Source: Flavobacterium aestivum (GTDB lineage Bacteria; Bacteroidota; Bacteroidia; Flavobacteriales; Flavobacteriaceae). From it: a stretch of 64,000 nt of DNA. Under the pieces are notes generated by a model, which saw only the letters and a list, made by a program, of their open reading frames with translations, was not told where the DNA came from and did no database searches. Shown here one piece after another: positions 19,244 to 60,285 of this stretch. A program made the position numbers and the translations under genes. Each line of letters starts with the position of its first letter. The first letter of the stretch is position 1. The DNA is taken from positions 2,976,001 through 3,040,000 of the forward strand of contig NZ_CP113977.2 in the NCBI RefSeq assembly GCF_026870175.2, read 5' to 3'.

Positions 19244-21358
19244 TCACTTTTTTTCTTTTATGGAAATAGCTACACCACCACTAGCAGCAAGTGGTTGTTT
19301 TAGTTTTGTTTTATTATTAATGATTATTTTGCGGATAGTATAGGATTGTGGTTTGTTAAGATAATGGGCTTCTTTGTCGTCTTCATAAATAATAGCATTA
19401 TATGATTTCCCTTTGGGTAAAAAACTAAAATCAATCATAGCCGTTCTCGGATTTTCATCAGTGATACCACCAACAAACCATTCTTGTTTGCCTTTTGCTT
19501 TTCGGGCAATGGTAATATAATCTCCCGGTTCAGCTTCTAGTATATAAGAGTTGTCCCAATCTAATGCTACATCCTTGATGAATTGAAAAGCATCTTTAAA
19601 GCGCATATAATTTTCGGGCAAGTCGGCAGCCATTTGCAAAGGACTGTACATTGTTACATACAAGGCCAATTGTTTTGTAAGAGTTGAACTCAATTTATTT
19701 TTCATTGTTCCATAAACCGACAAATCTCCTTGAAAAATTCCCGGAGTATAATCCATGGGACCACCCATTAATCGGGTAAAGGGTAGAATTGTAGTATGAT
19801 CTGGATTATTACCTCCAAAAGATTCAAATTCTGTTCCGCGTGCGGATTCCTGAGCAAACCAATTCGGATACGTTCGGCTTAATCCCGTTGGTCTAACAGC
19901 TTCATGGGAATCAACCATGATATGGTGTTTTGCGGCTTCTTGTGCTACATAAGTATAATGGTTTACCATCGTCTGACCGTCATGATGCTCTCCTCGTGGA
20001 ATAATTGGACCTACATAACCCGTTTTCACAGCATTATAGTTGTTGTCATCCATAAAACGAAAAGCGTCGTTTAATTGTCTTTCGTATTCGGCAGTAGATG
20101 ATGTGGTTTCGTGATGCATAATTATCTTAACACCATTTTGAGCTGCATATTGACTCAACTCTTTGACATCAAAATCAGGATATGATTTTGTGAAACTGTA
20201 AATACGCTCTTTTTTGAAAGCGGTATTGTCTTCCCAACCTTCATTCCAACCTTCAACCAATACGGCATCAAAACCATTGGCAGCTGCAAAATCTATATAT
20301 TCCTTGACATGTTTTGTATTTGCGCCATGAGTACCATTTGGTTTTAGTTTAGTAAAATCGGTTTTACCAATCACAATATCCTGATTGTTAGAATAAGCCC
20401 ATGTAGATCCTTTTCCTATAAAATATTCCCACCAAACCCCAACGTATTTTACGGGTTTTATCCAAGAGGTATCCTCAAAAGCACAGGGTTCGTTTAGATT
20501 TAATATAAGTTTAGAAGCAAGGATATCTCTGGCATCATCACTAACAACTATAGTTCTCCAAGGAGTATGACTACCAGTTTGAATATACCCTTTGTTGCCC
20601 ACAGCATCTGGTGTGAGGTGAGAGCTGGCGGTAAATGTTTTGTCGTCAATGTTCAGAAACATAGCAGGATAATTACTCAGTGAAGCTTCGTGAATGTTGA
20701 TGTATAGCCCATCCTCGGTTTTCATCATTAGGGGAGTTTGTACCGCTAAGTTTTTTATAGGTGATTGCGCAGCTAAGGATTCCTTTGAGGCTTCTTTTAT
20801 GAGTTTGGATATTTCGGATATTTTAGATGTGGTGTATTTGTATTCGTTGGTGTCATAATCCCCAGGTATCCAGAAAGTTTTATGATCGCCAGCCAAATTA
20901 AATTCACTGGTTTCTTCTTGAATAATGAAATGACGCAGATTGTCCTGTACGGGAAATTCGTAGCGAAATCCTAGTCCATCATCAAATAAGCGGAAGTACA
21001 ATGTCATTTTCCATTGACTTTTGTTTTGAGTGAGATGCACAATCATTTCATTATAATGATTGTTTATGGTTTTTTGTTCACCTAAAACAGGTTCCCAGGT
21101 ATTGTTTTCTGTATGAAAGGTCGTCTCTGTAATTTTAAAGTTTTCATTGAATGAAATATTGGGCTTTATGACAAATCCCATTTTACTTTCCTTAATAACT
21201 TCCTTTTGCTTATAACTTAAGGAGTAGGAGGGAGTTCCATTAGTATTTAAATTGAATTTTAGATTTAAGTTGCCATTAGGTGATTTTAATTCTTGTGCAT
21301 CTACTATTGATATAAAAGCAAAAAAATAGAAATAGATTAAGAAATTGTTTTTCATCAT
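19244..21358 (-). CDS. GH97 alpha-glucosidase, SusB-like
   Basis: A secreted GH97 glycosidase (704 aa, signal peptide about 1-21, ends VDAQ). The order is an N-terminal beta-sandwich (ELKSPNGNLNLKF to about 270), a TIM-barrel (LVEGWNEGWEDN near 365, IMHHET near 415, HEAVRPTGLSRTYPNW near 485, GTEFESFGGNN near 511) and a C-terminal beta-domain. The HHET Glu, the absence of the acidic nucleophile residue after AVKTGYVG and close resemblance to SusB place it in the inverting alpha-glucosidase group. It is divergent from the LacI gene and has an operator at its promoter, so it belongs to the glycan locus. A role in removing glucose caps from N-glycans is speculation; starch or oligoglucoside use is equally possible. 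Confidence 0.92.
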   Translation of the reverse strand: MMKNNFLIYFYFFAFISIVDAQELKSPNGNLNLKFNLNTNGTPSYSLSYKQKEVIKESKMGFVIKPNISFNENFKITETTFHTENNTWEPVLGEQKTINNHYNEMIVHLTQNKSQWKMTLYFRLFDDGLGFRYEFPVQDNLRHFIIQEETSEFNLAGDHKTFWIPGDYDTNEYKYTTSKISEISKLIKEASKESLAAQSPIKNLAVQTPLMMKTEDGLYINIHEASLSNYPAMFLNIDDKTFTASSHLTPDAVGNKGYIQTGSHTPWRTIVVSDDARDILASKLILNLNEPCAFEDTSWIKPVKYVGVWWEYFIGKGSTWAYSNNQDIVIGKTDFTKLKPNGTHGANTKHVKEYIDFAAANGFDAVLVEGWNEGWEDNTAFKKERIYSFTKSYPDFDVKELSQYAAQNGVKIIMHHETTSSTAEYERQLNDAFRFMDDNNYNAVKTGYVGPIIPRGEHHDGQTMVNHYTYVAQEAAKHHIMVDSHEAVRPTGLSRTYPNWFAQESARGTEFESFGGNNPDHTTILPFTRLMGGPMDYTPGIFQGDLSVYGTMKNKLSSTLTKQLALYVTMYSPLQMAADLPENYMRFKDAFQFIKDVALDWDNSYILEAEPGDYITIARKAKGKQEWFVGGITDENPRTAMIDFSFLPKGKSYNAIIYEDDKEAHYLNKPQSYTIRKIIINNKTKLKQPLAASGGVAISIKEKK

Positions 21359-21520: not shown

Positions 21521-21534
21521 CTAAATCGATTTAG
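21521..21534. promoter_or_regulatory. LacI-type operator at the GH97 promoter
   Basis: The perfect 14-bp palindrome CTAAATCGATTTAG has the central CG typical of LacI-family operators. On the minus strand it follows the TATATTTG box (21542-21535) directly, so a bound repressor would cover the transcription start. Confidence 0.8.
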
Positions 21535-21542
21535 CAAATATA
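21535..21542 (-). promoter_or_regulatory. -7 promoter box of the GH97 gene
   Basis: TATATTTG on the minus strand fits TAnnTTTG and abuts the operator. It implies a 5' UTR of about 165 nt. Confidence 0.6.
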
Positions 21543-21753
21543 TCAAAAAATGTTTATGCTGGATATTTTTAATTTAGTCCCATATTATTGAATACTTTTT
21601 TAAAAAAGTAATTTCCTATTAATCTTAAAGTTAAAATTTAATATAGGCTTCAGAATTCTTCTTTTTAAAGAAAAAATAAGCTGAATTATGTATTTAATCG
21701 ATAAAATTGGTATTTCGTCGAAAAAGTTTTAAAATGATTAAAATAACAGACTC

Positions 21754-21767
21754 CTAAATCGATTTAG
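21754..21767. promoter_or_regulatory. LacI-type operator at the lacI promoter
   Basis: Perfect CTAAATCGATTTAG lies 13 nt before the TATATTTG box at 21781-21788, over the -33 region. This position suggests autorepression. Confidence 0.8.
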
Positions 21768-21780
21768 TAAAACTTTTTTA

Positions 21781-21788
21781 TATATTTG
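21781..21788 (+). promoter_or_regulatory. -7 promoter box of the lacI-type gene
   Basis: TATATTTG fits TAnnTTTG and lies about 130 nt before the start codon. Confidence 0.55.
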
Positions 21789-21915
21789 CTTTGCTAAGAA
21801 ATAGTTAAATAATCATAAAGCTAAGCTAAATTATTTGATGACTGCAGATGAAATTGGTAAAAGCCAATAATATCATACAAGCTAAGTTTATTCTGAAACA
21901 ATAAAAAATCAACAC

Positions 21916-22926
21916 ATGAAAAAGATCACAATGAAAGATATTGCGTCGAAAGCCGAAGTCTCGGTTTCAACTGTTTCATTTGTGTTGAATAATATTGGTG
22001 AGAAAATGGGAATTAGCGCCACAGTCATAAATAAAGTTTTGGCAGTGGCTCAAGAGCTAAATTATAGACCTAATATGATTGCCAGTAGCCTTAGAACTGG
22101 AGAAACCAGATCTATTGGTTTAATCATAGAGGATATATCCAACCAATTCTTTTCTGATTTGGCAAAAGTTGTAGAAGATGAAGCCAGAAATTTAAATTAC
22201 CGCGTTTTTTATTGTAGTACAGGAGGGGATGATCAGCGTGCAGACGAACTGGTAAGCAGTCTTTTGCAAGCTAATGTAGACGGTTTTATTATTGCTCCTA
22301 CCGAAAAATTAGAGAAGACTATCGATAATCTTCTAAAAATGCAAGTGCCGGTAGTGTTGATAGACAGATACTTTCCTGATCAATTGGTAAGCAGCGTGGT
22401 GATGGATAATTACGAAGGTGCTTATTCTGCTACCAAAAAAATGATGGATTCTGGTTGTCGGAATATTGCAGTTGTGAATGTAAATTCTGGAATGATCCAA
22501 ATGAAATTAAGGGAATCAGGATATCAGGATGCACTGAAAGAGAACGGCATTTATGATGAATCACTGATAGTTCAAATTAATTTTAAGGATAGCGAAGAAG
22601 ACAAAATAAAAGCAATCACGGAATTATTAAAAAATCACCCTCAAGTTGATGGGATATTATTTTTATCAAATTATTTAGGACTTTGTGGGTTACAGGCATT
22701 TCGTCAATTAGGAATCAATATACCAAGTGATATATCGGTTATTAGTTTTGACGATCATGATAGTTTCAGATTGCACACACCTTCGATATCGGTTATTTCA
22801 CAGCCAATAGCAGCTATGGCCAAAAAAGCAATAGATATGCTTGTTAGCCAAATGACAACGGGGAAACATTCAGATATTGAAAAAGTCATACTAAAAGGGG
22901 ATTTTGTAGAAAGAGAATCTGTCTGA
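21916..22926 (+). CDS. LacI-family transcriptional regulator of the glycan locus
   Basis: A sugar-responsive repressor (336 aa). The N-terminal helix-turn-helix and hinge helix occupy about 1-60 (TMKDIASKAEVSVSTVSFVLNN, then NYRPNMIASSLRTGETRSIG). A periplasmic-binding-protein-like effector domain follows (about 63-330; VLIDRYFP, DGILFLSN, VISFDDHD). Four palindromes with the consensus CTAAATCGATTTAG near GH97, this gene and susC are its likely targets, and one sits on its own promoter. The inducer is probably a mannose-, GlcNAc- or glucose-containing sugar, but this is not readable. LacI control of a SusC/D locus is less usual than HTCS, SusR or ECF-sigma control in gut Bacteroides. Confidence 0.92.
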   Translation: MKKITMKDIASKAEVSVSTVSFVLNNIGEKMGISATVINKVLAVAQELNYRPNMIASSLRTGETRSIGLIIEDISNQFFSDLAKVVEDEARNLNYRVFYCSTGGDDQRADELVSSLLQANVDGFIIAPTEKLEKTIDNLLKMQVPVVLIDRYFPDQLVSSVVMDNYEGAYSATKKMMDSGCRNIAVVNVNSGMIQMKLRESGYQDALKENGIYDESLIVQINFKDSEEDKIKAITELLKNHPQVDGILFLSNYLGLCGLQAFRQLGINIPSDISVISFDDHDSFRLHTPSISVISQPIAAMAKKAIDMLVSQMTTGKHSDIEKVILKGDFVERESV

Positions 22927-22948
22927 CAGTATTTTTTTATAGCATTTG

Positions 22949-22962
22949 CTAAAACGATTTAG
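22949..22962. promoter_or_regulatory. LacI-type operator upstream of susC (distal, one mismatch)
   Basis: CTAAAACGATTTAG differs by one base from the perfect palindrome and lies 22 bp after the lacI stop and 76 bp before the next operator. Two sites could allow looping. Confidence 0.7.
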
Positions 22963-23038
22963 CTGTTCTGTGGTGCAAAAGAAGATTATACGCATTTTTA
23001 AAAGTGAGTCTAGTAAGACATTTTTTTTAGGCTGATTA

Positions 23039-23052
23039 CTAAATCGATTTAG
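23039..23052. promoter_or_regulatory. LacI-type operator upstream of susC (proximal)
   Basis: Perfect CTAAATCGATTTAG within the longer palindrome TACTAAATCGATTTAGTA, about 160 bp before the susC start. Confidence 0.8.
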
Positions 23053-23209: not shown

Positions 23210-26200
23210 ATGAAAAACAACCAAAAACAAATGAACAATAAAACTTATGAAAAACAAAAACTTATGAAACAAATATTATTAGTATTGGGACTGATATTGT
23301 TGGGAAGTTTTGGAGCAGTTGCACAAAACAGACCAGTATCAGGAGTAATTATGGATACAGAAAATAAAGCAATAAGTTCTGCTACCATTAAAGTAAAAGG
23401 GAAATCAATAAGTGTGGTAACGGATGCAGATGGTAAATTTGAAATCAAGGTTCCAGCTGGAGAAGTTACTCTATCCATCTCTTCTGTTGGTTATATCGCA
23501 AAAGCAGTTAAAGTTGCTCAAGAGGATACTAAGGTAACTGTTGTTTTAGCACCATCTGTAGAAAGTTTGAAGGATGTAGTGGTTACCTCGTTTGGGGTGA
23601 AAAAACAAAAGAAAGCTTTAGGATACGCAGTTGGAGAAATAAAAGGTGATGAACTGACAAAAAATAAAGAAATTAACTTAGGAAATGCCCTTCAGGGTAA
23701 AATTGCCGGGGTAAATGTTTCTGCACCAGTTACGGGTCCATCAGGTTCAAGCCGCGTTGTAATTCGTGGAGCGACTTCAGCTTCTGGACTTAACCAACCT
23801 TTGTATGTTGTTGATGGTATTCCTATTGATAACAGCCAACAAGGAAATGCCGGAATGTGGGGTGGAGCTGATAAAGGAGATGGTATGTCATCATTCAATC
23901 CTGATGATATTGCTTCTTTGTCTGTGTTAAAGGGTAGTGCTGCCTCTGCACTTTATGGATATAGAGGTTCTAATGGGGTTATCTTGATTACAACTAAAAA
24001 AGGAAAAGGTGGTAAAGGAATTGGAGTAGATTTCAGTACAAACTCTACTTTTAATACGCCAGCAAATCTTTTGAAATGGCAAGACCAATATGGAGCGGGA
24101 GCACCGGTAAATGGAGTTCCTACAAGATTTTCAGATCTACAAGAACTTAGAGATAGCTACTATTTTGCTTGGGGTGATAAATACGACGGGACAAACTCTC
24201 TTTCTATAGATGGGCAAAATCGTCCTTATAAAGCTTATGGGAAGGATAATGTTAATAAATTTTATAGAACAGGATATTCTTTCTCTAACACTTTGGCAGT
24301 ATCTGGAGGTAGTGATGCAACCAATTTCAGATTGTCATTCGGAAACACAAAAGACGAGTCAATCATGCCGGGAACCAATTTCGGAAGAAACAACTTTGCT
24401 TTGAATTTTAATTCAACACCAAATGAAAAAATAAGTGTTGAAGCTAATGCGCAATATATTACAGAGAAAAGTCATAACAGACCTTACTTGAATGACTCTC
24501 CTAGAAATGCATCTTTCCCAGTTACTTTTATGACTCCGGGAACAGACATCAGATGGTTAAATAATCCGTATGATGAAAATGGAGGTGAATCAGATTATTT
24601 AGGAGCGAATGTGTATCATACAAACCCATATTTTGCAGCTGCTGAAACCTTAAATGAAGATTTAAGAAAACGTTTTATTGGTTCTGCTAAATTGAACTAT
24701 AATATCACAGAGAAATTGTATGCCAAAGCGGTTATTGGTGTTGATGATATTAATTACGAATATACTGAAATTGAGCCTACAGGAATTAACTATAACCCAG
24801 GTGGATCTATCGAAAACAGAATTGAAAATCGTTCAGAGATTAACGGATCTGCATATTTAGGATATAAAGGAAATTTAGCCAAAGACTTTTCATTGGATGC
24901 ATTTGTTGGGGCAAACCGTCAGCATAACAGATTTAGTGGTCTGAAAATAAAAGGAAACAATTTTATAGTTCCATTTGAATATTTTTATGGAAACACTATG
25001 CCGGATAAATCAGAGGTATTGTTTTCTGAAAGCGAGGTTAACTCTCTTTTCTATTCAGCCGATTTGGGATACAAAAATTATTTATTTCTTAGTTTAACAG
25101 GTCGTGAAGATTGGTTCTCTACTTTAGATCCATCTAATAACAGTACTTTTTATCCTTCTGTGAGTTCAAGTTTTATTTACTCAGAAGTGATTGATTTACC
25201 AAAATGGATGTCATATGGTAAGATAAGAGCAGGTTGGGGTAACGTAGGAGGAGCATTGCCGGATGCATATGCATTAGCTTTGACTTATTCTGCTCCAGAT
25301 GGACAAACAGATGCATTAGGACAACCAATTTTGGGAGTAAACGGAGAAACGGTTCCTAACAAAAACTTGCAACCTTATAATGTAAGTACTATTGAGTTTG
25401 GTTTCGAAAATACATTTTTCAATAATAGAATTAGCACAGACTTGACTTTCTATAGCAAGAGAACGACCAACGACATCACAGATGCGGATATCTCTCAATC
25501 ATCTGGTTATAGAACTACCAAAATCAATGTGGGTGAAATCCTAAACAAAGGGGTAGAGTTTGCCATTAATGCAAAAGCTGTGAAAACAGATAATTTTACA
25601 TGGAATGTTGGTTATAATTTTGCTTATAATAATAGTGAAGTAATCAATTTATCAGATCAAATAAAAACTAAATCACTAGAAGGTAACAGAGATTCAAGAG
25701 CTTCTGTGGTTTTAGAGAAAGGACAACCTTTTGGGGTAATCAAAGCTTATGATTATTTAAGAGATGCCAACGGGAATATCGTAATCGGTTCTAATGGTAA
25801 ATTCATGAGAGGAGATTTAATAATTGCAGGACAAGGTGTTGCTCCAACTTCTATGGGACTTTCAAATGATTTCTCATATAAAAACATTACACTTTCTGTT
25901 TTTGTAGACGCTAAATTTGGAGGCGAAATTTATTCAGCTACAAACCAATTGGGAACTCGTTATGGATTATCAGAGGATACACTTCCAGGACGTGAGGGAG
26001 GAATTGCTGTAACAGGTAAAGATCCTAATGGTAATCCGGTAAATACACAAGTTTCTGCTTATGATTACTGGAGAAGCTATAGTGATGTAACCTCTAATTT
26101 TGTTTATGATGCTGACTTTGTAAAACTTAGAGCAGTATCTTTAAGCTATAACTTCCCAAAATCTGCTTTTGCAAATTCTCCATTTCAATCAGTTAGTTTA

Positions 26201-26353
26201 GCTTTTTCTGCTCATAATTTATGGACAATTTATAGTGCAACGCCAAATATTGACCCAGAGTCAAATTACTCTAATAGTAATGCTCAAGGGCTTGAGAGAG
26301 CTTCTATGCCTTTGACAAGAAACTACGGTTTAACGCTTAATGTCAAATTCTAA
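23210..26353 (+). CDS. SusC/RagA TonB-dependent outer-membrane glycan transporter
   Basis: The large outer-membrane barrel of a SusC/SusD pair (1047 aa). A signal peptide is best seen from Met19 (MKQILLVLG...GAVAQ), so the true start may be 23264 rather than 23210. Next come a carboxypeptidase-like D2 domain (about 38-115, VSGVIMDTENKAISSATI), a TonB box-like DVVVTSFG (about 123-130), the SusC plug with LQGKIAGVNV and PLYVVDGIPI, and a 22-strand type barrel ending LTLNVKF. It should import the trimmed glycan through TonB-powered transport together with the SusD 16 bp downstream. Operators of the LacI regulator lie upstream. Confidence 0.95.
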   Translation: MKNNQKQMNNKTYEKQKLMKQILLVLGLILLGSFGAVAQNRPVSGVIMDTENKAISSATIKVKGKSISVVTDADGKFEIKVPAGEVTLSISSVGYIAKAVKVAQEDTKVTVVLAPSVESLKDVVVTSFGVKKQKKALGYAVGEIKGDELTKNKEINLGNALQGKIAGVNVSAPVTGPSGSSRVVIRGATSASGLNQPLYVVDGIPIDNSQQGNAGMWGGADKGDGMSSFNPDDIASLSVLKGSAASALYGYRGSNGVILITTKKGKGGKGIGVDFSTNSTFNTPANLLKWQDQYGAGAPVNGVPTRFSDLQELRDSYYFAWGDKYDGTNSLSIDGQNRPYKAYGKDNVNKFYRTGYSFSNTLAVSGGSDATNFRLSFGNTKDESIMPGTNFGRNNFALNFNSTPNEKISVEANAQYITEKSHNRPYLNDSPRNASFPVTFMTPGTDIRWLNNPYDENGGESDYLGANVYHTNPYFAAAETLNEDLRKRFIGSAKLNYNITEKLYAKAVIGVDDINYEYTEIEPTGINYNPGGSIENRIENRSEINGSAYLGYKGNLAKDFSLDAFVGANRQHNRFSGLKIKGNNFIVPFEYFYGNTMPDKSEVLFSESEVNSLFYSADLGYKNYLFLSLTGREDWFSTLDPSNNSTFYPSVSSSFIYSEVIDLPKWMSYGKIRAGWGNVGGALPDAYALALTYSAPDGQTDALGQPILGVNGETVPNKNLQPYNVSTIEFGFENTFFNNRISTDLTFYSKRTTNDITDADISQSSGYRTTKINVGEILNKGVEFAINAKAVKTDNFTWNVGYNFAYNNSEVINLSDQIKTKSLEGNRDSRASVVLEKGQPFGVIKAYDYLRDANGNIVIGSNGKFMRGDLIIAGQGVAPTSMGLSNDFSYKNITLSVFVDAKFGGEIYSATNQLGTRYGLSEDTLPGREGGIAVTGKDPNGNPVNTQVSAYDYWRSYSDVTSNFVYDADFVKLRAVSLSYNFPKSAFANSPFQSVSLAFSAHNLWTIYSATPNIDPESNYSNSNAQGLERASMPLTRNYGLTLNVKF

Positions 26354-26369
26354 TTATAAAAATTGAAAG

Positions 26370-27884
26370 ATGAAAAATAAATATATAAAACTATTTTGTA
26401 TCGCAATAGTTAGTGCAGTGACATTGACTTCATGTGATAGCGGATTCGAGGAATTGAATACTAATCCAAACGCTTTATCAAAACCAGCAACAAAATCTAT
26501 GTTTACGCTTGCTGAAATATATATGGATGGACAAGATTATTCTAATACCAGAGGAAACAATGCTTATGCAGCCCAAATGGTTCAGCATTTTGCTTCATTG
26601 GGAGGACCAGGTTCAAAATACAGTTATTCATCTGAGTATTCAGCTTCTTTGTTTGGAGAATCATATGGTAAAGGATTGAATCAGATTTTCCAATTGATGT
26701 CAGTTTTACCAAACACACCAGAGAATACAAATATGATTCAGGCTTGTAGAATTATGAAGGTATTCTTGTTTCAAAAATTGACGGATACTTATGGAGAAGT
26801 TCCTTATTTTGAAGCTGGTAAAGGGTATAATGGAAATATTTTTGCTCCAAAATACGACACTCAGGAAGTAATCTACAACGATCTTTTAAAAGAGTTGGAT
26901 GAAGCTGGTGATGCATTAGATGTTAACAAGGGTTTTGTGGGTAACGCAGATTTGTTTTACCAAAGTGATGTTACTAAATGGAAAAAATTAGCCAACTCAT
27001 TAATGCTAAGAGTAGCTATGCGTTTGTCTAAAGTAGATCCTGCTAAATCAAAACAATTTGTAGAAAAAGCTTTTGCAAAAGGTGTTTTTAGTTCAAATGC
27101 TGAAAGTTTAGTATTGAAACATGAAGCTAATCCACAAGGGGTAAAAACAAACCCAATAACTTCATCTTGGGTTAGAAATGACTTGAATGCAGGTGATGGA
27201 AATACAAAATACAGCAAAACTTTTATTGATTTGCTAAAAAACACCAATGACCCTCGTTTGAGAATTTATGCTAAATTAGAAGCTACAGGAGACAACAATC
27301 CAGCGAGTCAACAAGGGCTAGCCAATGATGCAAAAGAGTTTCCAGGCGGAGACAAAAAAAAGTTCTCAGATCCTAACACATCTACAGTATTGCGTCTAGA
27401 TGCACCAACATTAATTATGTCTTATGCAGAGGTTCAATTCTTGTTGGCAGAAGCTGCATTAAAAGGTTGGAATGTTTCTGGAACGGCACAACAACATTAT
27501 GAAGATGGGGTAAAAGGAGCAATGGGAATTCTAACCATTTTTGGAGACAAAGTGCCTGCTGTTTCATTATCAGAGTACAATACTTACATGACAGCTAATC
27601 CTTTTAAAGCTTCAGGAACAAATGCCGAAAAGTTGGAACAAATTATAACTCAAAAATGGATTGTTTTGTTGTTTAATGGTTTCGAGGCATATTCAGAGTG
27701 GAGAAGAACAGGATATCCTGTTTTAGTTCCTGTTAATGATCCTTCTGGAGAAACTAACGGGACAATTCCAAGAAGATTAATTTATGATCAGTCAGAATTA
27801 ATAACAAATGCAGCCAACTATAAGGAAGCTGTACAACGCCAAGGTTTAGACTTAATGACAACCAGAATTTGGTGGGATAAATAA
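26370..27884 (+). CDS. SusD/RagB-like glycan-binding surface lipoprotein
   Basis: The cell-surface partner of the upstream SusC (504 aa). The lipoprotein signal ends in LTSCDSGFEELNTNPN (Cys at about 22), the typical start of SusD-like_2 proteins. TPR-like helices and the C-terminal WRRTGYPVL motif (about 448) fit the family. It would bind the glycan at the surface and close like a lid over SusC. The pair is followed by a strong hairpin, so it forms a separate transcript from the enzyme genes. Confidence 0.93.
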   Translation: MKNKYIKLFCIAIVSAVTLTSCDSGFEELNTNPNALSKPATKSMFTLAEIYMDGQDYSNTRGNNAYAAQMVQHFASLGGPGSKYSYSSEYSASLFGESYGKGLNQIFQLMSVLPNTPENTNMIQACRIMKVFLFQKLTDTYGEVPYFEAGKGYNGNIFAPKYDTQEVIYNDLLKELDEAGDALDVNKGFVGNADLFYQSDVTKWKKLANSLMLRVAMRLSKVDPAKSKQFVEKAFAKGVFSSNAESLVLKHEANPQGVKTNPITSSWVRNDLNAGDGNTKYSKTFIDLLKNTNDPRLRIYAKLEATGDNNPASQQGLANDAKEFPGGDKKKFSDPNTSTVLRLDAPTLIMSYAEVQFLLAEAALKGWNVSGTAQQHYEDGVKGAMGILTIFGDKVPAVSLSEYNTYMTANPFKASGTNAEKLEQIITQKWIVLLFNGFEAYSEWRRTGYPVLVPVNDPSGETNGTIPRRLIYDQSELITNAANYKEAVQRQGLDLMTTRIWWDK

Positions 27885-28272: not shown

Positions 28273-30282
28273 ATGAATCTAATAAAGTCACACTCCCTTC
28301 TTTTCGGATCTTTATCATTGCTTATTGGTTTCATAAACGGACGTTCAGATAACAGTCAGAACATTTCTATTGAAATCAATAAAGGTTGGCAATTTCATCA
28401 AGTAAATCAAAGCGACTGGCATCCTGCAACTGTACCTGGAGAAGTGCACACAGATTTATTGAAAAACAAAATGATACCAGACCCTTTTTATCGTGATAAT
28501 GAGAAAAAGTTGGTATGGATAGAAAAGAAAGACTGGGAGTATAAGACTACTTTTGAAGTTGCTCAAAAGATATTAGATAAAAAAAATAGCAAATTGGTTT
28601 TTGATGGTCTGGATACATACGCCACGGTATATTTGAACGATAAGCAAATACTAAAGACTGATAATATGTTCCGTCAGTGGAGTGCTGATGTAAAACCTTA
28701 TTTGAAAGAAGGAAAAAATGAATTGAGAGTAGTCTTTAAATCTGCCCAAAACGTAGTAGACTCACTTGCTAAAAAAGATTTACCGTATGTGATTCCAGAT
28801 AATCCAAGAGCTTATGTGCGCAAAGCCCAATATCATTTTGGTTGGGATTGGGGACCAAAATTTACTACATGCGGAATTTGGAAATCAGTTAGATTAGAAG
28901 TATTCAACGAAACAGCAATAGAAAAGGAATATAAGGCACCACACCAATACGAGCTGGTACAAGAAGCTGATAATGTCGGCAAATCATTTTATTTCAAAAT
29001 AGATGGTAAGCCCGTTTACATGAAAGGGGCAAATTATATACCATCGGATGCATTCCTTTCCAGAGTAACCCATGCAGAATATGATAAAGTGATTGCTACC
29101 GCCAAAGATGCGAATATGAACATGCTTCGAGTTTGGGGAGGCGGAATCTACGAGAGTGATTACTTCTATGATTTATGTGATAAAAACGGAATTTATGTAT
29201 GGCAGGATTTTATGTTTGCCGGCACGATGGTTCCTGGCGATAAACACTTTTTTGATAATGTAAGGGAAGAAGTAAAATACCAAGTAAAGCGTTTGCGTCA
29301 CCATCCTTCAATTGTAGTTTGGTGTGGAAACAATGAAATAGATGAAGCTTTCAAAAACTGGGGATGGCAAAAAACATTCAAAATAGATAAAAAGGATTCT
29401 ATCCGATTATGGAATGATTATAAAAGATTATTTCAGGATAGTATTCCAAAGTGGGTAAAAGAGGTAGATCCGCATCGACCTTACGTGAGTAGTTCACCTT
29501 TATTGGGTTGGGGAAAACCACAAAGCATTACCGAAGGCGACAGTCATTATTGGGGAACTTGGTGGGGATTGGAAGATATAGAAGTTACCCAAAAGAAAAC
29601 CGGTCGCTTTGTGAGTGAATACGGAATGCAGGCAATGCCTAATTATTCTACCACCGAAAGAATCACAATTGAAGAGGATAGACATTTGTATTCGGATGTG
29701 TTAAAAGCACACCAAAAAGCAGGTAAAGGATTTAATAAATTGAATTCGTATTTGCAGCGCTATTTCAAAGACACCACCAATGTCAAAACATGGTCTGTAA
29801 AAGATTATACGTATCTCACGCAGTGCTTACAATATTATTCTTTTAAAAACATAATAGGAATACATCGTTCAAAAGCGCCTTATAATATGGGAACCATTTT
29901 GTGGCAACTCAATGATTGTTGGCCAGTGGCTAGTTGGAGTATTACCGATTACTACAATCGCCAACCCAAAGCAGCTTGGTATGCTGTAAAAGAAGCGTAT
30001 AGAGATGATGTAAAACCGGTAGTAGATTTGACCCGCCCAATAAATTTGAAGTTAGAAAATCCTAAAATCAAATTTAAACTGGATGGACAAAAAATAGTTC
30101 TTAAAGCTGATAAAGATGCCAAATATGTTTGGATAGACATCAAAGGATATACAGGAAGGTTGAGTGATAACTATTTTGATTTGAAAGCAGGACAGGAAAA
30201 GACCATTAGTATAGAAAGTCAGATTGCAAACCCAAGTATCACAATCACATCTTTGTATGAAGTTTTAAATAGGAATAAATAG
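28273..30282 (+). CDS. GH2 beta-mannosidase-like enzyme, shortened internally
   Basis: It should release the beta-mannose of the N-glycan core or other beta-mannosides. The N-terminal jelly-roll (about 30-210, INKGWQFHQVN, WDWGPKFTTCGIWK) is followed almost at once (about 218-232) by the start of the TIM barrel (SFYFKIDGKPVYMKGANYIPSD). The catalytic residues are kept: acid/base in WCGNNE (Glu about 354) and nucleophile in FVSEYG (Glu about 449). Family members are about 850 aa; this is 669. The roughly 100-aa Ig-like domain before the barrel and a similar domain after it (after KEAYRDDVKPV, about 575) appear absent, both in frame. The last about 80 residues match the C-terminal domain. Activity is uncertain. 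It is the first gene of the enzyme operon. Confidence 0.88.
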   Translation: MNLIKSHSLLFGSLSLLIGFINGRSDNSQNISIEINKGWQFHQVNQSDWHPATVPGEVHTDLLKNKMIPDPFYRDNEKKLVWIEKKDWEYKTTFEVAQKILDKKNSKLVFDGLDTYATVYLNDKQILKTDNMFRQWSADVKPYLKEGKNELRVVFKSAQNVVDSLAKKDLPYVIPDNPRAYVRKAQYHFGWDWGPKFTTCGIWKSVRLEVFNETAIEKEYKAPHQYELVQEADNVGKSFYFKIDGKPVYMKGANYIPSDAFLSRVTHAEYDKVIATAKDANMNMLRVWGGGIYESDYFYDLCDKNGIYVWQDFMFAGTMVPGDKHFFDNVREEVKYQVKRLRHHPSIVVWCGNNEIDEAFKNWGWQKTFKIDKKDSIRLWNDYKRLFQDSIPKWVKEVDPHRPYVSSSPLLGWGKPQSITEGDSHYWGTWWGLEDIEVTQKKTGRFVSEYGMQAMPNYSTTERITIEEDRHLYSDVLKAHQKAGKGFNKLNSYLQRYFKDTTNVKTWSVKDYTYLTQCLQYYSFKNIIGIHRSKAPYNMGTILWQLNDCWPVASWSITDYYNRQPKAAWYAVKEAYRDDVKPVVDLTRPINLKLENPKIKFKLDGQKIVLKADKDAKYVWIDIKGYTGRLSDNYFDLKAGQEKTISIESQIANPSITITSLYEVLNRNK

Positions 30283-30333: not shown

Positions 30334-32601
30334 ATGGAATTTAAAAAAATATTTTTTGCAGTAGCCTTACTCAGTACATCATTGCATACTTTATCTATCT
30401 ATTCACAAGGAAAGACAAAGCAACAATCTAAAACAGGATACACACAATATGTAAATCCATATATCGGATCGGGAGGTCACGGACATATTTTTGTTGGAGC
30501 GAATGTTCCTTTTAGTGCAGTACAGTTGGGACCATCAACAATTTTTGAGGGTTGGGATTGGTGCAGTGCCTATAATTATTCCAGTAACACCATTTTAGGA
30601 TTTACGCATACCCATTTGAGTGGAACAGGAATTGGTGATCTTAATGATATTCTGCTTTTACCAGTTACTGGAAAAGTACCATTGAAAAAAGCAACAAAAG
30701 AAGATGTAAGCGGATACGGTTCTACATTTTCGCATGCAAATGAGGTGGTAAAACCGGGCTACTACAGTGTTAATTTAGACCGATATAATGTAAAAGCAGA
30801 ACTGACAACAACTGAGAGAGTTGGTTTTCATAAATACACTTTTAATTCAAAAGAAGAGGCCCACATATTGTTAGACTTAGCAGATGGAGTGGGATGGGAT
30901 AGCCCGAAGGAAACTTTCATTAAAAAAACGGGAAACAGAACTTTGGTCGGATATAGACATTCTAAGGGATGGGCTGCAGATCAGCGTTTGTTTTTTGCCA
31001 TAGAATTTTCGGAAGACATTTCAAACCTTGCATTGTATGACAGTACAAAAGTGGTGACAGGAATTGAAGGCAAGGGTTTAAAAATGAAAGCAGTGCTTGA
31101 CTTTGCAACTAAATCCAATAAAGTGATTATGGCAAAAGTGGGACTTTCTCCAGTGAGTTATGAAAATGCTTTGGCCAACATAAAAACCGAAATTGCTCAT
31201 TGGGATTTTGCCAAAACTGTTCAACAAGCCGATGCTAAATGGAATAAAGCTTTGAGCAAAATCGACATTAAAGGAGATGCTGATACCAAAACTATTTTTT
31301 ATACCTCTTTCTATCACACCATGTTTGCGCCTTCCATTTTTAATGATGCCAATGGAGATTACAGAGGAACTGATAAAAAAGTATATAAAAATGCAGGATT
31401 TGTAAACTACACCACTTTCTCTTTGTGGGATACTTACCGTGCTTTGCATCCGCTATATACGATCACACAGGAAGATAAAATCAATGATATTGTCAAGACC
31501 TTTTTAGCAATTTATCAGCAACAAGGAAGATTACCAGTTTGGCATTTGATGGGGAATGAAACGGATTGTATGAACGGAAATCATTCTATAGCTGTTATTG
31601 TTGATGCCTATTTTAAGGGCTATAGAAATTATGATGTAGCATTGGCATTCGAAGCAATTAAGACTACAGCCATGCAAAAACGTGCCGGTTTAGATTATGT
31701 ACAGCAATTGCAATATATACCGGCAGATAGCCAACTGGAAACGGTTGCCAATGCTTTGGAATATGCAATTGACGATTGGTGTATTGCAAAAATGGCTAAG
31801 GATTTGAATAAAATGGAGGACTATGCTTATTTCTCAAAAAGAGCCGAATTGTACAAACAGTATTTTGATAAAAACAGTGGATTTATGCGAGGAAAATTGA
31901 AAAACGGACAATGGCGCGAGCCTTTCAATCCGCTATCCTCTTCCCATAGAAAAGACGATTATGTAGAGGGAAATGCTTGGCAATATACTTGGCTTGTACC
32001 GCAAGATCCTTACGGTTTGATAGAATTGTTTGGAGGAGATGATAAGTTCGTCGAAAAATTTGATCAATTATTTAAAATTAAAGAAAAAGTAGCGGGAGAG
32101 GAAGCCTCGCCAGATATTAGTGGTTTGATTGGTCAATATGCACAAGGCAATGAGCCAAGTCACCATATCCCTTATCTGTATGCATATGTAGGGCAACCAT
32201 GGAAAACAGCTGAGATTGTCCGTGAAGTTTTTGATAAATTCTATACCACCAAGACAGATGGAATTTGTGGTAATGAAGATGTCGGGCAAATGTCTGCTTG
32301 GTATGTCTTGTCATCAATGGGATTCTATGCCGTAAATCCTGCCAATGGTATTTATGTTATGGGAAGCCCAGCAGTCAATGAAGCAACAATTCATTATAAA
32401 GAGAATGTTTCTTTCAAGATAGTGGCAATAGACAACAGTGTAGCCAATAAATACATTCAAAAAATAGAGTACAACGGAAAACCTTATACAAAATCATACA
32501 TAACTCATGACATGATTGTAAAAGGAGGTGAGTTAAAATTATATATGGGAAGTCAGCCTTCACAAACATTTGGAGTAAAAAAAGAAGACAGACCTTTGTA
32601 G
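30334..32601 (+). CDS. GH92 alpha-mannosidase (alpha-1,2 type motif)
   Basis: A Ca2+-dependent inverting exo-alpha-mannosidase (755 aa). The signal peptide covers about 1-25. An N-terminal beta-sandwich (YVNPYIGSGGHGHIFVGANVP at about 35) and an (alpha/alpha)6 domain follow. The VWHLMGNETDCMNGNH motif (about 401-416) has the catalytic acid Glu and the preceding His/Met pattern seen in alpha-1,2-mannosidases of the family. GNEDVGQMSAWYV (about 646) has the catalytic base Asp. It would trim terminal alpha-1,2-mannose from high-mannose glycans. It lies 51 bp after GH2 and 74 bp before a second GH92. Confidence 0.93.
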   Translation: MEFKKIFFAVALLSTSLHTLSIYSQGKTKQQSKTGYTQYVNPYIGSGGHGHIFVGANVPFSAVQLGPSTIFEGWDWCSAYNYSSNTILGFTHTHLSGTGIGDLNDILLLPVTGKVPLKKATKEDVSGYGSTFSHANEVVKPGYYSVNLDRYNVKAELTTTERVGFHKYTFNSKEEAHILLDLADGVGWDSPKETFIKKTGNRTLVGYRHSKGWAADQRLFFAIEFSEDISNLALYDSTKVVTGIEGKGLKMKAVLDFATKSNKVIMAKVGLSPVSYENALANIKTEIAHWDFAKTVQQADAKWNKALSKIDIKGDADTKTIFYTSFYHTMFAPSIFNDANGDYRGTDKKVYKNAGFVNYTTFSLWDTYRALHPLYTITQEDKINDIVKTFLAIYQQQGRLPVWHLMGNETDCMNGNHSIAVIVDAYFKGYRNYDVALAFEAIKTTAMQKRAGLDYVQQLQYIPADSQLETVANALEYAIDDWCIAKMAKDLNKMEDYAYFSKRAELYKQYFDKNSGFMRGKLKNGQWREPFNPLSSSHRKDDYVEGNAWQYTWLVPQDPYGLIELFGGDDKFVEKFDQLFKIKEKVAGEEASPDISGLIGQYAQGNEPSHHIPYLYAYVGQPWKTAEIVREVFDKFYTTKTDGICGNEDVGQMSAWYVLSSMGFYAVNPANGIYVMGSPAVNEATIHYKENVSFKIVAIDNSVANKYIQKIEYNGKPYTKSYITHDMIVKGGELKLYMGSQPSQTFGVKKEDRPL

Positions 32602-32675: not shown

Positions 32676-34964
32676 ATGAGAAATAAGTGGATAATTATTT
32701 GGGGATTATGCCTTGTAGTTTTAGCTGTCAAAGCTCAGAATAAAACAGGAAGCCCCGTCGATTATGTAAACCCTTTGATGGGAACACAATCGGTGCACAG
32801 TCTTTCAAACGGGAATACCTATCCAGCGATTTCACGTCCTTGGGGAATGAATTTTTGGACACCACAAACCGGAAAAATGGGTGACGGTTGGATGTATACC
32901 TACACAGCCGAGAAAATAAGAGGTTTTAGACAAACACATCAACCTTCTCCATGGATAAATGATTACGGACAGTTTTCGATCATGCCAGTTACAGGTAAAT
33001 TAGCTTTTACAGAAGAGGATAGAGCCAGTTGGTTTAGCCATAAATCAGAGACAGTAAAGCCGTACTATTACAGCGTTTATCTTGCAGATTATGACGTAAC
33101 CACTGAGATGACCGCAACGGAACGAGCAGCTCATTTTCAATTTACTTTTCCGGAAAATGAACAGTCTTCGATCGTTATTGATGCATTCGACAAAGGCTCT
33201 TATGTAAAAATTATTCCGTCAGAAAACAAAATAATTGGCTATACAACACGCAATAGTGGTAGTGTACCACAAAATTTCAAGAACTATTTTGTAATTGTAT
33301 TTGATAAGCCTTTTGCTTTGAGTCAGACTTGGCAGGGCAAAACTTTGGAGAAAGAAAAATTGGAAATGTCGTCGGATCATGCTGGAGCCATTATTGGGTT
33401 TAAAACCAAAAAAGGAGAAAAGATTAACGTGAAGGTAGCTTCTTCATTTATAAGCTTTGAACAGGCAGAGTTGAATTTGGAACATGAATTAGGAACTGCT
33501 TCTTTTGAGCAAACTGTTGCTGAATCCAAAAAAGAATGGAATAAAGTATTAGCAAAAGTTACTGTTGAGGGCGGAACAGACGAACAAATGCAGACTTTTT
33601 ATTCTTGTCTTTATCGAACTGCCTGTTTTCCGCAAAAACTGTATGAAGTAGACTCGAACGGGAAAATTGTTCATTACAGTCCGCATAATGGGCAAGTTTT
33701 GCCAGGATATATGTTTGCGGGTACCGGTTTTTGGGATACGTTCCGAGCATTGTATCCTATGCTAAATTTATTTTATCCTTCTATAAATAAAGAAATGCAA
33801 GAAGGTTTGATAAATGTCTATAAAGAAGGTGGTTTTCTACCAGAATGGTCAAGTCCTGGATTTAGAGATTGCATGGTCGGAAACAATTCAGCTTCAGTAG
33901 TTGCAGATGCTTATCTTAAAGGAGTACAAGTACAGGATATTCAAACATTATATGCTGCTCTTTTGAAAGGAGCAAACAACGAAGGGCCAAATGCCACAGG
34001 AAGAAAAGGAGCAGCTTTTTATAACAAATTGGGTTATGTGCCAAATGACGTTGGGATTAATGAAAGTGCGGCAAGAACCCTGGAATATGCTTATGATGAT
34101 TTTACTATTTGGCAACTGGCAAAAGCTCTAAAAAGACCAAAGAAGGAAATTGATTTATACGAAAAACGTATGATGAATTATAAGTTGCTTTTTAATCCGT
34201 CTTTTAATTTGATGAGCGGAAAAAGCAAAGACGGTAAATTCTCATCTTCATTCAATCCATTCAAATGGGGTGGAGATTTTACGGAAGGTAACAGTTGGCA
34301 TTATAGCTGGAGTGTGTTTCATGACATACAGGGATTGGTTAACTTAATGGGAGGACAAAAGCAATTTGTATCTAAATTGGATGAAGTTTTTACTTTACCA
34401 CCAGTTTTTGATGATAGTTATTACGGTTCAGTTATCCACGAAATAAGAGAAATGCAAATTATGAACATGGGACAATATGCGCATGGGAATCAGCCAATTC
34501 AGCACATGATTTATTTATACAATTATGCTGGAGAACCATGGAAAACACAATATTGGTCTAGAGAAGTGATGAATCGTTTGTACAAGCCTACACCAGATGG
34601 TTATTGCGGAGATGAAGATAACGGACAAACATCGGCTTGGTATGTTTTCTCCGCTTTAGGATTCTATCCTGTTTGTCCGGGAACGGATGAATATGTTTTG
34701 GGAGCGCCATTATTTAAAAAAGCAACAGTTGATTTAGAAAACGGAAAACAGATTGTCATTAAAGCCGAAAATAATTCGGCTAATAATAAATACGTTCAGG
34801 AGTTAAAATGGAATCAAACGTCATATAACAAAAACTATATCAATCATTTCGAATTATTGAAAGGAGCAGAGCTAGATTTTGATATGATGACAACTCCAAA
34901 TAAAAACAGAGGAAATTCATCAGAGAGCTACCCTTATTCGTATTCAACACAGAAAAATAAATAA
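32676..34964 (+). CDS. GH92 alpha-mannosidase paralogue with non-canonical acid motif
   Basis: A second GH92 (762 aa, signal peptide about 1-20, ends VKAQ). The fold elements match the first: YVNPLMGTQSVHSLSNGNTYP, FWDTFRALYPM and GDEDNGQTSAWYVFSALGFYP with the base Asp (about 645). Where the first enzyme has GNETDCM, this one reads PGFRDCMVGNNS (about 394), so the usual catalytic acid Glu is missing and the segment is one residue shorter. Known GH92 subgroups with changed acid positions act on other linkages or on mannose-phosphate. Its linkage target is therefore probably not alpha-1,2. Cell location is likely periplasm or surface. Confidence 0.92.
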   Translation: MRNKWIIIWGLCLVVLAVKAQNKTGSPVDYVNPLMGTQSVHSLSNGNTYPAISRPWGMNFWTPQTGKMGDGWMYTYTAEKIRGFRQTHQPSPWINDYGQFSIMPVTGKLAFTEEDRASWFSHKSETVKPYYYSVYLADYDVTTEMTATERAAHFQFTFPENEQSSIVIDAFDKGSYVKIIPSENKIIGYTTRNSGSVPQNFKNYFVIVFDKPFALSQTWQGKTLEKEKLEMSSDHAGAIIGFKTKKGEKINVKVASSFISFEQAELNLEHELGTASFEQTVAESKKEWNKVLAKVTVEGGTDEQMQTFYSCLYRTACFPQKLYEVDSNGKIVHYSPHNGQVLPGYMFAGTGFWDTFRALYPMLNLFYPSINKEMQEGLINVYKEGGFLPEWSSPGFRDCMVGNNSASVVADAYLKGVQVQDIQTLYAALLKGANNEGPNATGRKGAAFYNKLGYVPNDVGINESAARTLEYAYDDFTIWQLAKALKRPKKEIDLYEKRMMNYKLLFNPSFNLMSGKSKDGKFSSSFNPFKWGGDFTEGNSWHYSWSVFHDIQGLVNLMGGQKQFVSKLDEVFTLPPVFDDSYYGSVIHEIREMQIMNMGQYAHGNQPIQHMIYLYNYAGEPWKTQYWSREVMNRLYKPTPDGYCGDEDNGQTSAWYVFSALGFYPVCPGTDEYVLGAPLFKKATVDLENGKQIVIKAENNSANNKYVQELKWNQTSYNKNYINHFELLKGAELDFDMMTTPNKNRGNSSESYPYSYSTQKNK

Positions 34965-35037: not shown

Positions 35038-36501
35038 ATGCAAACACGTAGAAAATTTATAAAAAACACAGGAATTTTTTCGGCAGGAGTTCTTGCTTTG
35101 CAAACAGATGCATTTGCTTTAAATACGGATTCAGTTTTTAATTTACAGCAAAAAGACTTCGTGAGTCAACGCCCGCCTTTGGCACAAAGGAAATTCACAA
35201 GTAAAGCCATTGAAGATGCTATTGTTCGTATCAAAAAGCAAATTGCAAACCCGGAATTAGCATGGCTATTCGAAAACTGTTTTCCAAATACTTTAGATAC
35301 CACTGTAGACTTTGAGGTTATTGATGGCAAACCAGATACTTATGTCATTACGGGAGATATAGATGCCATGTGGCTTCGTGACAGTACTGCACAGATTTGG
35401 CCTTATATACCTTTTGTAAAAGAAGATAAAAAACTGGGAGAGCTTGTAAAAGGAGTGATTAATCGCCAAACGAAATGTATCCTACTAGATCCTTATGCAA
35501 ATGCTTTTTATAAAGATTTTAATCAGGTGAGCGAATGGAAGAATGATTTGACTAAAATGAAACCGGGTATTCATGAACGCAAATGGGAAATTGATAGTTT
35601 GTGTTACCCAATCAGGTTAGCACACGGCTATTGGAAAGAAACCGGAGATATCAGTATGTTCGACAATGATTGGAAAGCCGCAATGAATCTAGTCTTGCAA
35701 ACATTCAAGGAGCAACAAAGATGGACAAATAAAGGGCCATACACTTTTCAGCGCAATACAGCTTGGGCTACAGACGGAGTGCCATTGTCCGGATATGGTT
35801 ACCCTGTAAAACCTTGCGGATTAATTGTTTCAACTTTCCGCCCGAGCGATGATAGCACACTTTTTGGTTATCTGATTCCGAGTAATATGTTTGCTATAGA
35901 GGTATTGGGGTATTTAATTGAGATGTTCTCAACCCCAGTCTTAAAAGATGATGCTATAGTTGCTAAAGCAAAAGAACTTCAAGAACAAGTACAAAAAGGA
36001 TTGAAAGAAAACGGAATCATCACGCATCCAAAATTTGGAGAAATAATTGCATTTGAAGTAAACGGTTACGGAAGTTTTCATTTTATGGATGACGCCAATG
36101 TTCCTTCGCTATTGTCATTACCATATTTAGGAGCGGTAAAACCAGATAGTCCATTGTATTTGAATACAAGAAAAGTAGTGCTTTCAGAAAACAATCCGTT
36201 TTTTTATAAAGGAAAAGCAGCCGAAGGAATTGGTGGACCACACACTGGAGCCGACACGATTTGGCCAATGAGTATCATTCTTAGAGCGATTACGAGTGTA
36301 GATGAAAATGAGATTAAATACTGCATAGGGATATTAAAGAAAACCCACGCAGATACTGGATTTATGCATGAATCTTTTCATAAAGACGATGCCAGGCAGT
36401 TTACCCGCAAATGGTTTGCTTGGGCAAATACTTTGTTTGGGGAAATGATTGTTCAAACCAGTATAAAACATCCTCAAATATTAAAAGATAAAAATATTTA
36501 A
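35038..36501 (+). CDS. GH125 exo-alpha-1,6-mannosidase
   Basis: A metal-independent inverting exo-alpha-1,6-mannosidase (487 aa), formerly DUF1237. The N-terminus QTRRKFIKNTGIFSAGVLAL looks like a Tat signal. Family blocks visible are DIDAMWLRDSTAQIWPYI (about 113-130), YQRNTAWATDG-like FQRNTAWATDGVPL (about 237-250) and GGPHTGADTIWPM (about 399-411). It would remove the alpha-1,6 mannose left after GH92 trimming, leaving the Man-GlcNAc2 core. It lies in the operon between GH92 and GH18. Confidence 0.93.
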   Translation: MQTRRKFIKNTGIFSAGVLALQTDAFALNTDSVFNLQQKDFVSQRPPLAQRKFTSKAIEDAIVRIKKQIANPELAWLFENCFPNTLDTTVDFEVIDGKPDTYVITGDIDAMWLRDSTAQIWPYIPFVKEDKKLGELVKGVINRQTKCILLDPYANAFYKDFNQVSEWKNDLTKMKPGIHERKWEIDSLCYPIRLAHGYWKETGDISMFDNDWKAAMNLVLQTFKEQQRWTNKGPYTFQRNTAWATDGVPLSGYGYPVKPCGLIVSTFRPSDDSTLFGYLIPSNMFAIEVLGYLIEMFSTPVLKDDAIVAKAKELQEQVQKGLKENGIITHPKFGEIIAFEVNGYGSFHFMDDANVPSLLSLPYLGAVKPDSPLYLNTRKVVLSENNPFFYKGKAAEGIGGPHTGADTIWPMSIILRAITSVDENEIKYCIGILKKTHADTGFMHESFHKDDARQFTRKWFAWANTLFGEMIVQTSIKHPQILKDKNI

Positions 36502-36530: not shown

Positions 36531-37622
36531 ATGACCAGAAGTATAAAATTTATCTTGTTGGCGCTTTTAACGGTTTGCTATGCAAATGCACAAAAAGCTA
36601 AAAATCTGGATATCATAGCCTATTACACAGGAGATGATAAATTGATAAATGAATTTGAGGTAAATAAATTGACCCATATCATTTATAGTTTTTGTCATTT
36701 GAAGGAAGGAAAATTAAATGTTGATACTTCAAAAGATTCTCTAGCGATTAAATATCTAGTCTCATTAAAATCAAAAAATCCACAATTAAAAGTAATGCTA
36801 TCATTAGGAGGCTGGAGCGGATGTGCTCCGTGTTCAGAAGCGTTTTCCACTCCAAAAGGGCGGGAAGTTTTTGCCCAATCGGTAAAAGAAGTGAATGATT
36901 ATTTCAAATGTGATGGATTAGATTTAGATTGGGAATATCCAACAATAGAAGGATATCCAGGGCATTTATTCCAAGCTGCAGATAAAGGAAATTTTACGGA
37001 ACTGATAAAAATACTTCGCAAAACATTAGGCAATAAAAATGAATTAAGCTTTGCTGCAGGCGGGTTCCAGAAATATTTAGACGAATCGGTCGAGTGGAAA
37101 AAAATAATGCCATTGGTAAATCGGGTCAATATTATGAGTTACGATTTAGTAAACGGTTATTCAAAAGTTACAGGTCATCACACCCCATTGTATAGTACCA
37201 AAAAAGATGAAGAATCTACAGATAAAGCGGTGTCCTATTTGCTGAGCATGGGGATACCAGCAAATAAGTTAGTTATCGGCGCCGCTTTTTATACCCGTAA
37301 TTGGAAAGAAGTTTCTAATACAAACAAAGGATTGTACCAATCGGGAGAACCAACAGCCAGTGTAGATTTCAAGAATTTTTCCAGCACTTTTCTGCCATCA
37401 AACGGTTGGGAATATTTTTGGGACAAGAAAGCAATGGCTCCCTATTGGTATAACGAAAAGGAAAAAATATTTGCCACCGGCGATGATATCACTTCAGTAA
37501 AAGCCAAAACGTCTTATGCCATAAAAAACAAACTGGGAGGTATTATGTTTTGGGAGCTTGTTTTAGATAGTCCTCAAAATGGTATGGTAGATGCAATATA
37601 TCAGCTAAAAACAGCAAAATAG
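36531..37622 (+). CDS. Secreted GH18 glycosidase (endo-beta-N-acetylglucosaminidase or chitinase)
   Basis: A retaining GH18 enzyme acting by substrate-assisted catalysis (363 aa). The signal peptide covers about 1-20 (ends ANAQ). The barrel shows VMLSLGGWSG (about 87-96) and the catalytic DGLDLDWEYP (about 126-135, Glu the acid). In this operon the expected reaction is cutting the chitobiose core GlcNAc-GlcNAc of N-glycans, as in EndoF-type enzymes, but plain chitinases share the motif, so activity is inferred from context. It lies 29 bp after GH125 and is probably the last gene of the enzyme transcript; the ROK gene is 187 bp away. Confidence 0.88.
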   Translation: MTRSIKFILLALLTVCYANAQKAKNLDIIAYYTGDDKLINEFEVNKLTHIIYSFCHLKEGKLNVDTSKDSLAIKYLVSLKSKNPQLKVMLSLGGWSGCAPCSEAFSTPKGREVFAQSVKEVNDYFKCDGLDLDWEYPTIEGYPGHLFQAADKGNFTELIKILRKTLGNKNELSFAAGGFQKYLDESVEWKKIMPLVNRVNIMSYDLVNGYSKVTGHHTPLYSTKKDEESTDKAVSYLLSMGIPANKLVIGAAFYTRNWKEVSNTNKGLYQSGEPTASVDFKNFSSTFLPSNGWEYFWDKKAMAPYWYNEKEKIFATGDDITSVKAKTSYAIKNKLGGIMFWELVLDSPQNGMVDAIYQLKTAK

Positions 37623-60004: not shown

Positions 60005-60285
60005 TTTTGGACTTTTAAGCGATACAATGGAATTAGAAATCTATAATCAATTAAGCACTCGAATTATTTTACTGCAACATTAAACAATTTGTGCTTATTA
60101 ATGGAATTATATCGCTTAAAAAGTTAAAAAAATCCTAAAACTTATCCAGAAAACGTTTTCGGAAAACGCTTTGTAGTTCAAATTCTGTCGTTTGTTTAAA
60201 AAACATTGTTGTTGGTATAATTTTTTTTTTTAGAAAACACCTTCCGTCTAAATTTACAGTATAACTAACAAAAAACAATTTAAAA
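60005..60285. promoter_or_regulatory. Divergent regulatory region between lytS-like and susC genes
   Basis: It holds a 16-bp inverted repeat with one mismatch, TTTTAAGCGATACAAT (60013-60028) and ATTATATCGCTTAAAA (60107-60122). It also holds a tandem operator-like pair, GAAAACGTTTTC (60149-60160, perfect palindrome) and GAAAACGCTTTG (60162-60173). A long T-run lies near 60221-60231. No gene is seen. Confidence 0.65.

Follow-up and report, generated by a model that had tools for sequence, protein, structure and literature searches.

Which regulator controls the mannosidase locus of the window, as we call the whole stretch of 64,000 nucleotides that was analysed, and by what sites it acts is the question raised by a lacI gene placed between GH97 and susC and flanked by copies of a short palindrome. 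An earlier note on this DNA had proposed a LacI regulon defined by four operators and had regarded LacI control as a departure from the HTCS, SusR and ECF schemes usual for such loci. The first part of this proposal was supported by a genome scan, and by 80 relative loci and 150 genomes that tie the motif to the lacI clade, whereas the second part proved to be overstated. The most probable reading, to which we give a probability of about 0.8, is that the locus forms a local, autoregulated regulon under a LacI-family repressor, directed at high-mannose N-glycans and induced by mannose, mannose-6-phosphate or a mannoside. This model rests on the sites, their positions, their conservation, their co-occurrence with the regulator and their uniqueness in the genome.

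Adjacent susC and susD genes accompanied by glycoside hydrolases characterize the region as a SusC/SusD polysaccharide utilisation locus (Table 1). The families GH92, GH125, GH18 and GH2 and an asparaginase of the type found here are the feature set of a high-mannose N-glycan utilisation locus, and all of them are present. As judged from the families, this content fits the degradation of high-mannose N-glycans as far as their linkage to asparagine. In the GH2 protein (669 aa), only about 37 residues separate the N-terminal sugar-binding match from the TIM-barrel match, and the middle domain is apparently missing; an assembly error is unlikely, because relatives hold a form of similar length at 73-75% identity. 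At 58273-63333, a second susC-like gene lies near two open frames, one resembling a sensor kinase and the other a response regulator of the LytTR type, and this gene is probably under separate control.

Table 1. Predicted operators, predicted -7 boxes and genes of the locus, in window positions.
Feature	Position	Strand	Remarks
Operator 1	21521..21534	.	CTAAATCGATTTAG, exact; spans predicted +1 of GH97
Operator 2	21754..21767	.	CTAAATCGATTTAG, exact palindrome; spans -33 of lacI (putative autoregulation)
Operator 3	22949..22962	.	CTAAAACGATTTAG, one mismatch to CTAAATCGATTTAG; lacI-susC gap
Operator 4	23039..23052	.	CTAAATCGATTTAG, exact; lacI-susC gap
Predicted -7 box of GH97	21535..21542	-	TATATTTG; from the sequence and the TAnnTTTG consensus
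Predicted -7 box of lacI	21781..21788	+	TATATTTG; 13 nt after operator 2
GH97, SusB-like alpha-glucosidase	19244..21358	-	
lacI, LacI-family regulator (HTH + sugar-binding domain)	21916..22926	+	
susC-like TonB-dependent receptor	23210..26353	+	
susD-like lipoprotein	26370..27884	+	
GH2, beta-mannosidase type (Ig_mannosidase domain)	28273..30282	+	
GH92 (alpha-mannosidase family)	30334..32601	+	
GH92 (alpha-mannosidase family)	32676..34964	+	
GH125 (alpha-mannosidase family)	35038..36501	+	
GH18 family	36531..37622	+	putative regulon member, from gene order
ROK-family sugar kinase	37810..38709	+	putative regulon member, from gene order
Asparaginase_2 family, probable glycosylasparaginase (specific name putative)	38999..40000	+	putative regulon member, from gene order
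CutC family	40029..40700	+	putative regulon member, from gene order

A motif scan of the window returned the three perfect copies and the single-mismatch copy of the palindrome that had been described before, along with the 76-bp gap reported between the susC-side pair (90 bp start to start). No further copy had been noticed in the window, and this also held, as the remaining three matches all carry three mismatches. When up to three mismatches to CTAAATCGATTTAG were allowed, the window gave 7 matches against a shuffle mean of 6.36; the signal is therefore confined to the copies with no or one mismatch. The positions of the copies were compared with predicted promoters, using the start-site map of Flavobacterium psychrophilum, in which TAnnTTTG is the consensus between -12 and -5 (PMC9723704). 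The GH97 operator directly follows the -7 box and covers about -4 to +10 relative to the predicted start. Its earlier description as lying over the start of GH97 is thus right for the predicted transcription start and wrong for the start codon, which is found 163 bp further at 21358. The placement of an operator over the -33 of lacI was borne out, since it spans about -39 to -26 relative to the TATATTTG box of that gene.

The arrangement of sites was then followed in relatives of the locus, obtained by scanning genome contigs for LacI relatives. The best 80 of 119 stretches (58-68% identical) were used, of which 78 are named Flavobacterium and 2 come from one [Flexibacter] record; some genomes give two loci. 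The F. johnsoniae CI04 record, L036, is among those that carry the ortholog. In all but three of the 80 loci (77; the exceptions are L064, L082 and L089), the first 180 bp 3' of lacI include a site with at most two mismatches (85 sites), and 5' of lacI such a site is present in 51 (53 sites), which together with the operator over -33 in the window marks a putative autoregulatory site. It was not recognised in the other 29 loci, some of them shortened by contig ends. In the control with the sequences read backwards, a copy at up to one mismatch occurred in 0/80 loci. At the GH97 promoter the site is exact in all 25 loci that have GH97 upstream, and TAnnTTT[AG] directly abuts it in each of them (TAnnTTTG in 18). 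The lacI-side site, exact in the window, is mostly CAAAATCGTTTTAG or CTAAAACGATTTTG in relatives (two mismatches), and at 50 of the 53 such sites TAnnTTTG comes 14-17 nt later, compared with 13 nt in the window. Many sites sit inside a wider TTACTAAATCGATTTAGTAA.

The gene content around these sites is also largely shared. Homologs of GH2/GH92/GH125 with more than 50% identity are encoded downstream in 67/80 loci, and a close mannosidase homolog is absent downstream in 13. A phosphomannose isomerase gene stands just 5' of lacI in 31 of the 80 loci (two recognised by Pfam, the others by BLAST to one of those), and in L030, L043, L064 and L068 the isomerase gene is itself immediately preceded by a site. 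The signal suggested by this arrangement is mannose metabolism. However, the lone phosphomannose isomerase gene of the present genome is located elsewhere and has no site, which weakens the link to mannose in this genome.

The following account of DNA binding, of LacI as a dimer, of repression in preference to activation, of inducer and substrate, and of the reach of the operon is inferred. When the inducer is absent, a LacI dimer would occupy the CTAAATCGATTTAG operators and block RNA polymerase. At GH97 the protein would lie on the transcription start immediately downstream of the -7 box, and at lacI it would cover the -33 region, resulting in autoregulation. At susC, LacI bound to the two sites of the lacI-susC gap would hold down susCD-GH2-GH92-GH92-GH125, and repression would probably extend on through GH18-ROK-asparaginase-CutC. 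Mannose, mannose-6-phosphate or a small mannoside derived from high-mannose N-glycans may then bind the sugar domain, and repression would be lifted. The operators over the GH97 start point and over the -33 of lacI argue for repression. Moreover, the distance from operator to susC start varies widely, and fixed-spacing activation is therefore less likely than repression.

The susC promoter is the place where a different role of LacI has to be weighed. The protein may be a dual regulator, which represses GH97 and lacI and activates or loops at susC, whose promoter would then lie nearer the start codon; we consider this unlikely. It would agree with the lack of a TAnnTTTG -7 box in the 283-bp lacI-susC gap and with a T-rich element nearer the susC start, conserved in an alignment of 57 such gaps, one from the window and 56 taken from the 80 loci by the criteria of a susC above 70% identity and a gap below 420 bp. 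This element could be the real promoter of susC, and the operators would then be located upstream of it. The pairing of the sites in the window also speaks for a dual role, as does a second site (up to three mismatches) 64-69 bp after the first in 19/80 relative loci. In most loci, however, no second site was recognised near this distance, and the window has a spacing of 90 bp, so that looping by constant spacing was rejected as not supported. Among relatives, the operator-to-susC-start distance (starts called mechanically) ranges from 31 to 733 bp, most values falling between about 100 and 300 bp, and is likewise unlike that of a fixed-spacing activator. A search for RNA hairpins in two window stretches around the lacI-susC gap gave folds no better than those of shuffled sequences (z -0.28 and 0.23). 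The stretch after lacI in the relative L072 folds somewhat better than shuffles (z -1.83, with 10/200 shuffles as good) and is possibly a lacI terminator.

Repression by the product of the neighbouring lacI gene, the reading preferred here, also requires that this protein is the owner of the sites. The regulator is a LacI-family transcription factor, with PF00356 and PF13377 above cut-offs, and the closest solved chains are the LacI-family regulators RbsR, CcpA and PurR. The motifs VSxxTVSFV in its DNA-reading helix and SLRTG in its hinge are invariant across the clade, for which 53 distinct HTH sequences were compared. The site has the form of a LacI-family operator, as it is an even palindrome with a central CG that is conserved in relatives; such palindromes and autoregulation are typical of this family (PMC4052901). 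The association was examined in 150 genomes of the genus, where an ortholog was defined by E at most 1e-90 and the motif as the four-variant CTAAAWCGWTTTAG. The ortholog was found in 25 genomes and the motif in 43. The motif is present in 24/25 genomes with the ortholog (the exception is G114) and in 19/125 without it. The corresponding Fisher p of 4e-15, uncorrected for relatedness, is only a guide, because the genomes are related. In genomes with the ortholog there are more sites (41) than matches to the reversed pattern (18), which is not so in the 125 genomes without it (27 against 71), and 38 of the 41 sites are no further than 4 kb from lacI.

Sites in the 19 genomes without the ortholog indicate that the motif is not private to it. 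More distant LacI proteins, with E of 1e-30 or below, are found in 18 of these genomes, and by coordinates at least 8 genomes (G010, G015, G065, G072, G083, G106, G111 and G153) have a site within about 500 bp of such a LacI gene, so that the half-site is common to a wider LacI group. These related sites in genomes that lack the ortholog would be expected if another regulator, for example a LacI paralog, owned the sites and the neighbourhood of lacI were coincidental. This explanation is nevertheless very improbable, given the tracking of the ortholog by the site in all but one of the 25 genomes and the surroundings of the other three LacI genes of this genome. The 15-18 kb stretches around those genes have no site within two mismatches, and the scanned gaps beside them, including the lacI-susC gap of L119, contain no 14-bp central-CG palindrome with at most one mismatched pair.

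Across the genome (4,580,707 b, 4.58 Mb), CTAAATCGATTTAG was found at 3 exact places, all of them in the locus and within 1.6 kb, and at 2 one-mismatch places, the second of which, at 3865130, falls within a 1,559-aa open frame. With 0 exact copies outside the locus, the genome-wide scan that had been suggested as a check revealed no motif common across unrelated promoters. A dinucleotide Markov model built on the window predicts 0.0005 exact copies per 64 kb and 0.035 per genome. At up to two mismatches there is no wider excess, with 37 places against 71 for the reversed-pattern control, and over all 150 genomes the 68 sites of CTAAAWCGWTTTAG do not exceed the 89 of the reversed pattern. An excess at 2-3 mismatches was therefore rejected, counts in both the window and the genome being equal to or below controls, and the claim is restricted to the four good sites; the evidence is where the motif sits, not its frequency. 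That the copies reflect chance or a common genomic repeat is a negligible possibility, because, although neither the looser matches nor the four-variant motif outnumber their controls, three exact copies stand so close together against the small number expected, and the sites are conserved at the same places in relatives. Of the 33 places with two or fewer mismatches that lie outside the locus, 14 were inspected; 7 are in open frames and 7 are intergenic. Four of these intergenic places belong to one array of near-regular copies, namely four CTAAAGCAATTTAG copies in 90-91-bp steps at G000:C1:806227-806512 (L112), which is apparently unrelated to the regulon.

An N-glycan cluster of Xanthomonas has a LacI-type regulator. 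Within the present genome, 3 of the 4 LacI-family genes adjoin susC-like genes (neighbours assigned by resemblance, not scanned). In L119 (own genome, 328000-346000), a susC-like gene is divergent from another LacI gene, and by resemblance the locus is starch/maltose-like. These neighbours, together with precedents in PMC3878776 and PMC5306329, are the reason why the view of LacI control as a departure was found to be overstated. In Bacteroides thetaiotaomicron, four LacI-family sugar regulators (KdgR, UxaR, UxmR and UxuR) are described, and ManR (BT2103), of the GntR family, runs a SusC/SusD alpha-mannoside operon (PMC3878776); a lacI gene also appears by name in a figure legend on a xylan locus of Gramella (PMC5306329). 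Among the matches listed in a search of open-licence literature by titles and abstract starts, no description of a LacI regulon of a Flavobacterium mannosidase locus was found.

The regulon resembles the local LacI-family sugar regulons of PMC4052901 in its two-domain protein, even palindrome with central CG, autoregulation, sugar catabolic targets and promoter-near sites. That study treats the Bacteroides phylum as one taxonomic group, and its main text has no word beginning with Flavobacter; relative to the regulons it describes, the operator sequence and gene set reported here are a property of this Flavobacterium clade. The likeness to ManR lies in the coupling of mannose metabolism to an alpha-mannosidase SusC/SusD operon, but ManR is a GntR-family protein, whereas the regulator here belongs to the LacI and not to the GntR family (PMC3878776). 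With KdgR, UxaR, UxmR and UxuR it shares LacI-family control of sugar catabolism in Bacteroidota, although these are assigned to uronate pathways, not mannosides (PMC3878776). The HTCS_Man alpha-mannan loci of B. thetaiotaomicron are alike in their mannosidases and SusC/SusD transport but use membrane-anchored hybrid two-component sensors instead of a LacI protein (PMC3878776).

The model would provide a widespread environmental genus with a compact regulon for the use of high-mannose glycans, and the motif and the regulator together mark likely targets in the 80 loci. LacI proteins are commonly found beside SusC/SusD genes in this genome, and they therefore merit attention next to the better-known membrane sensors. 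A broader proposal, tentative and unlikely to hold in full, is that a Flavobacterium-wide LacI family, including a branch at 35-39% identity with CTAAAACGTTTTAG, shares an operator vocabulary for mannosides and N-glycans. Operator quality would then be graded by target (exact at GH97; at lacI weaker in relatives and exact here), and the paired susC sites would serve looping or a dual repressor-activator switch.

Several observations concern LacI genes outside the locus. In the distant branch (L153, L155, L156 and L160), CTAAAACGTTTTAG occurs near lacI or neighbour genes, and L160 additionally carries CTAAATCGTTTTAG; several of the neighbours are ROK-kinase-like or GH125-like (by resemblance, not scanned). 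An exact motif copy at position 3495 of L151 (G017:C12) is on a contig separate from that of lacI, upstream of a 1,052-aa open frame, SusC-like by look and not scanned, which is a possible second regulon target in G017. The LacI paralogs in L080-L083 and L085-L090 (58-63% identity) stand beside different susC or susCD genes, and CTAAAACGATATAG is found 3' of lacI in L080, L083, L085, L086 and L087. The neighbours of these paralogs, which include GH20 and GH3 in L080 and a fucosidase, an M28 peptidase, an asparaginase homolog and a ROK homolog in L085, suggest a complex-N-glycan counterpart.
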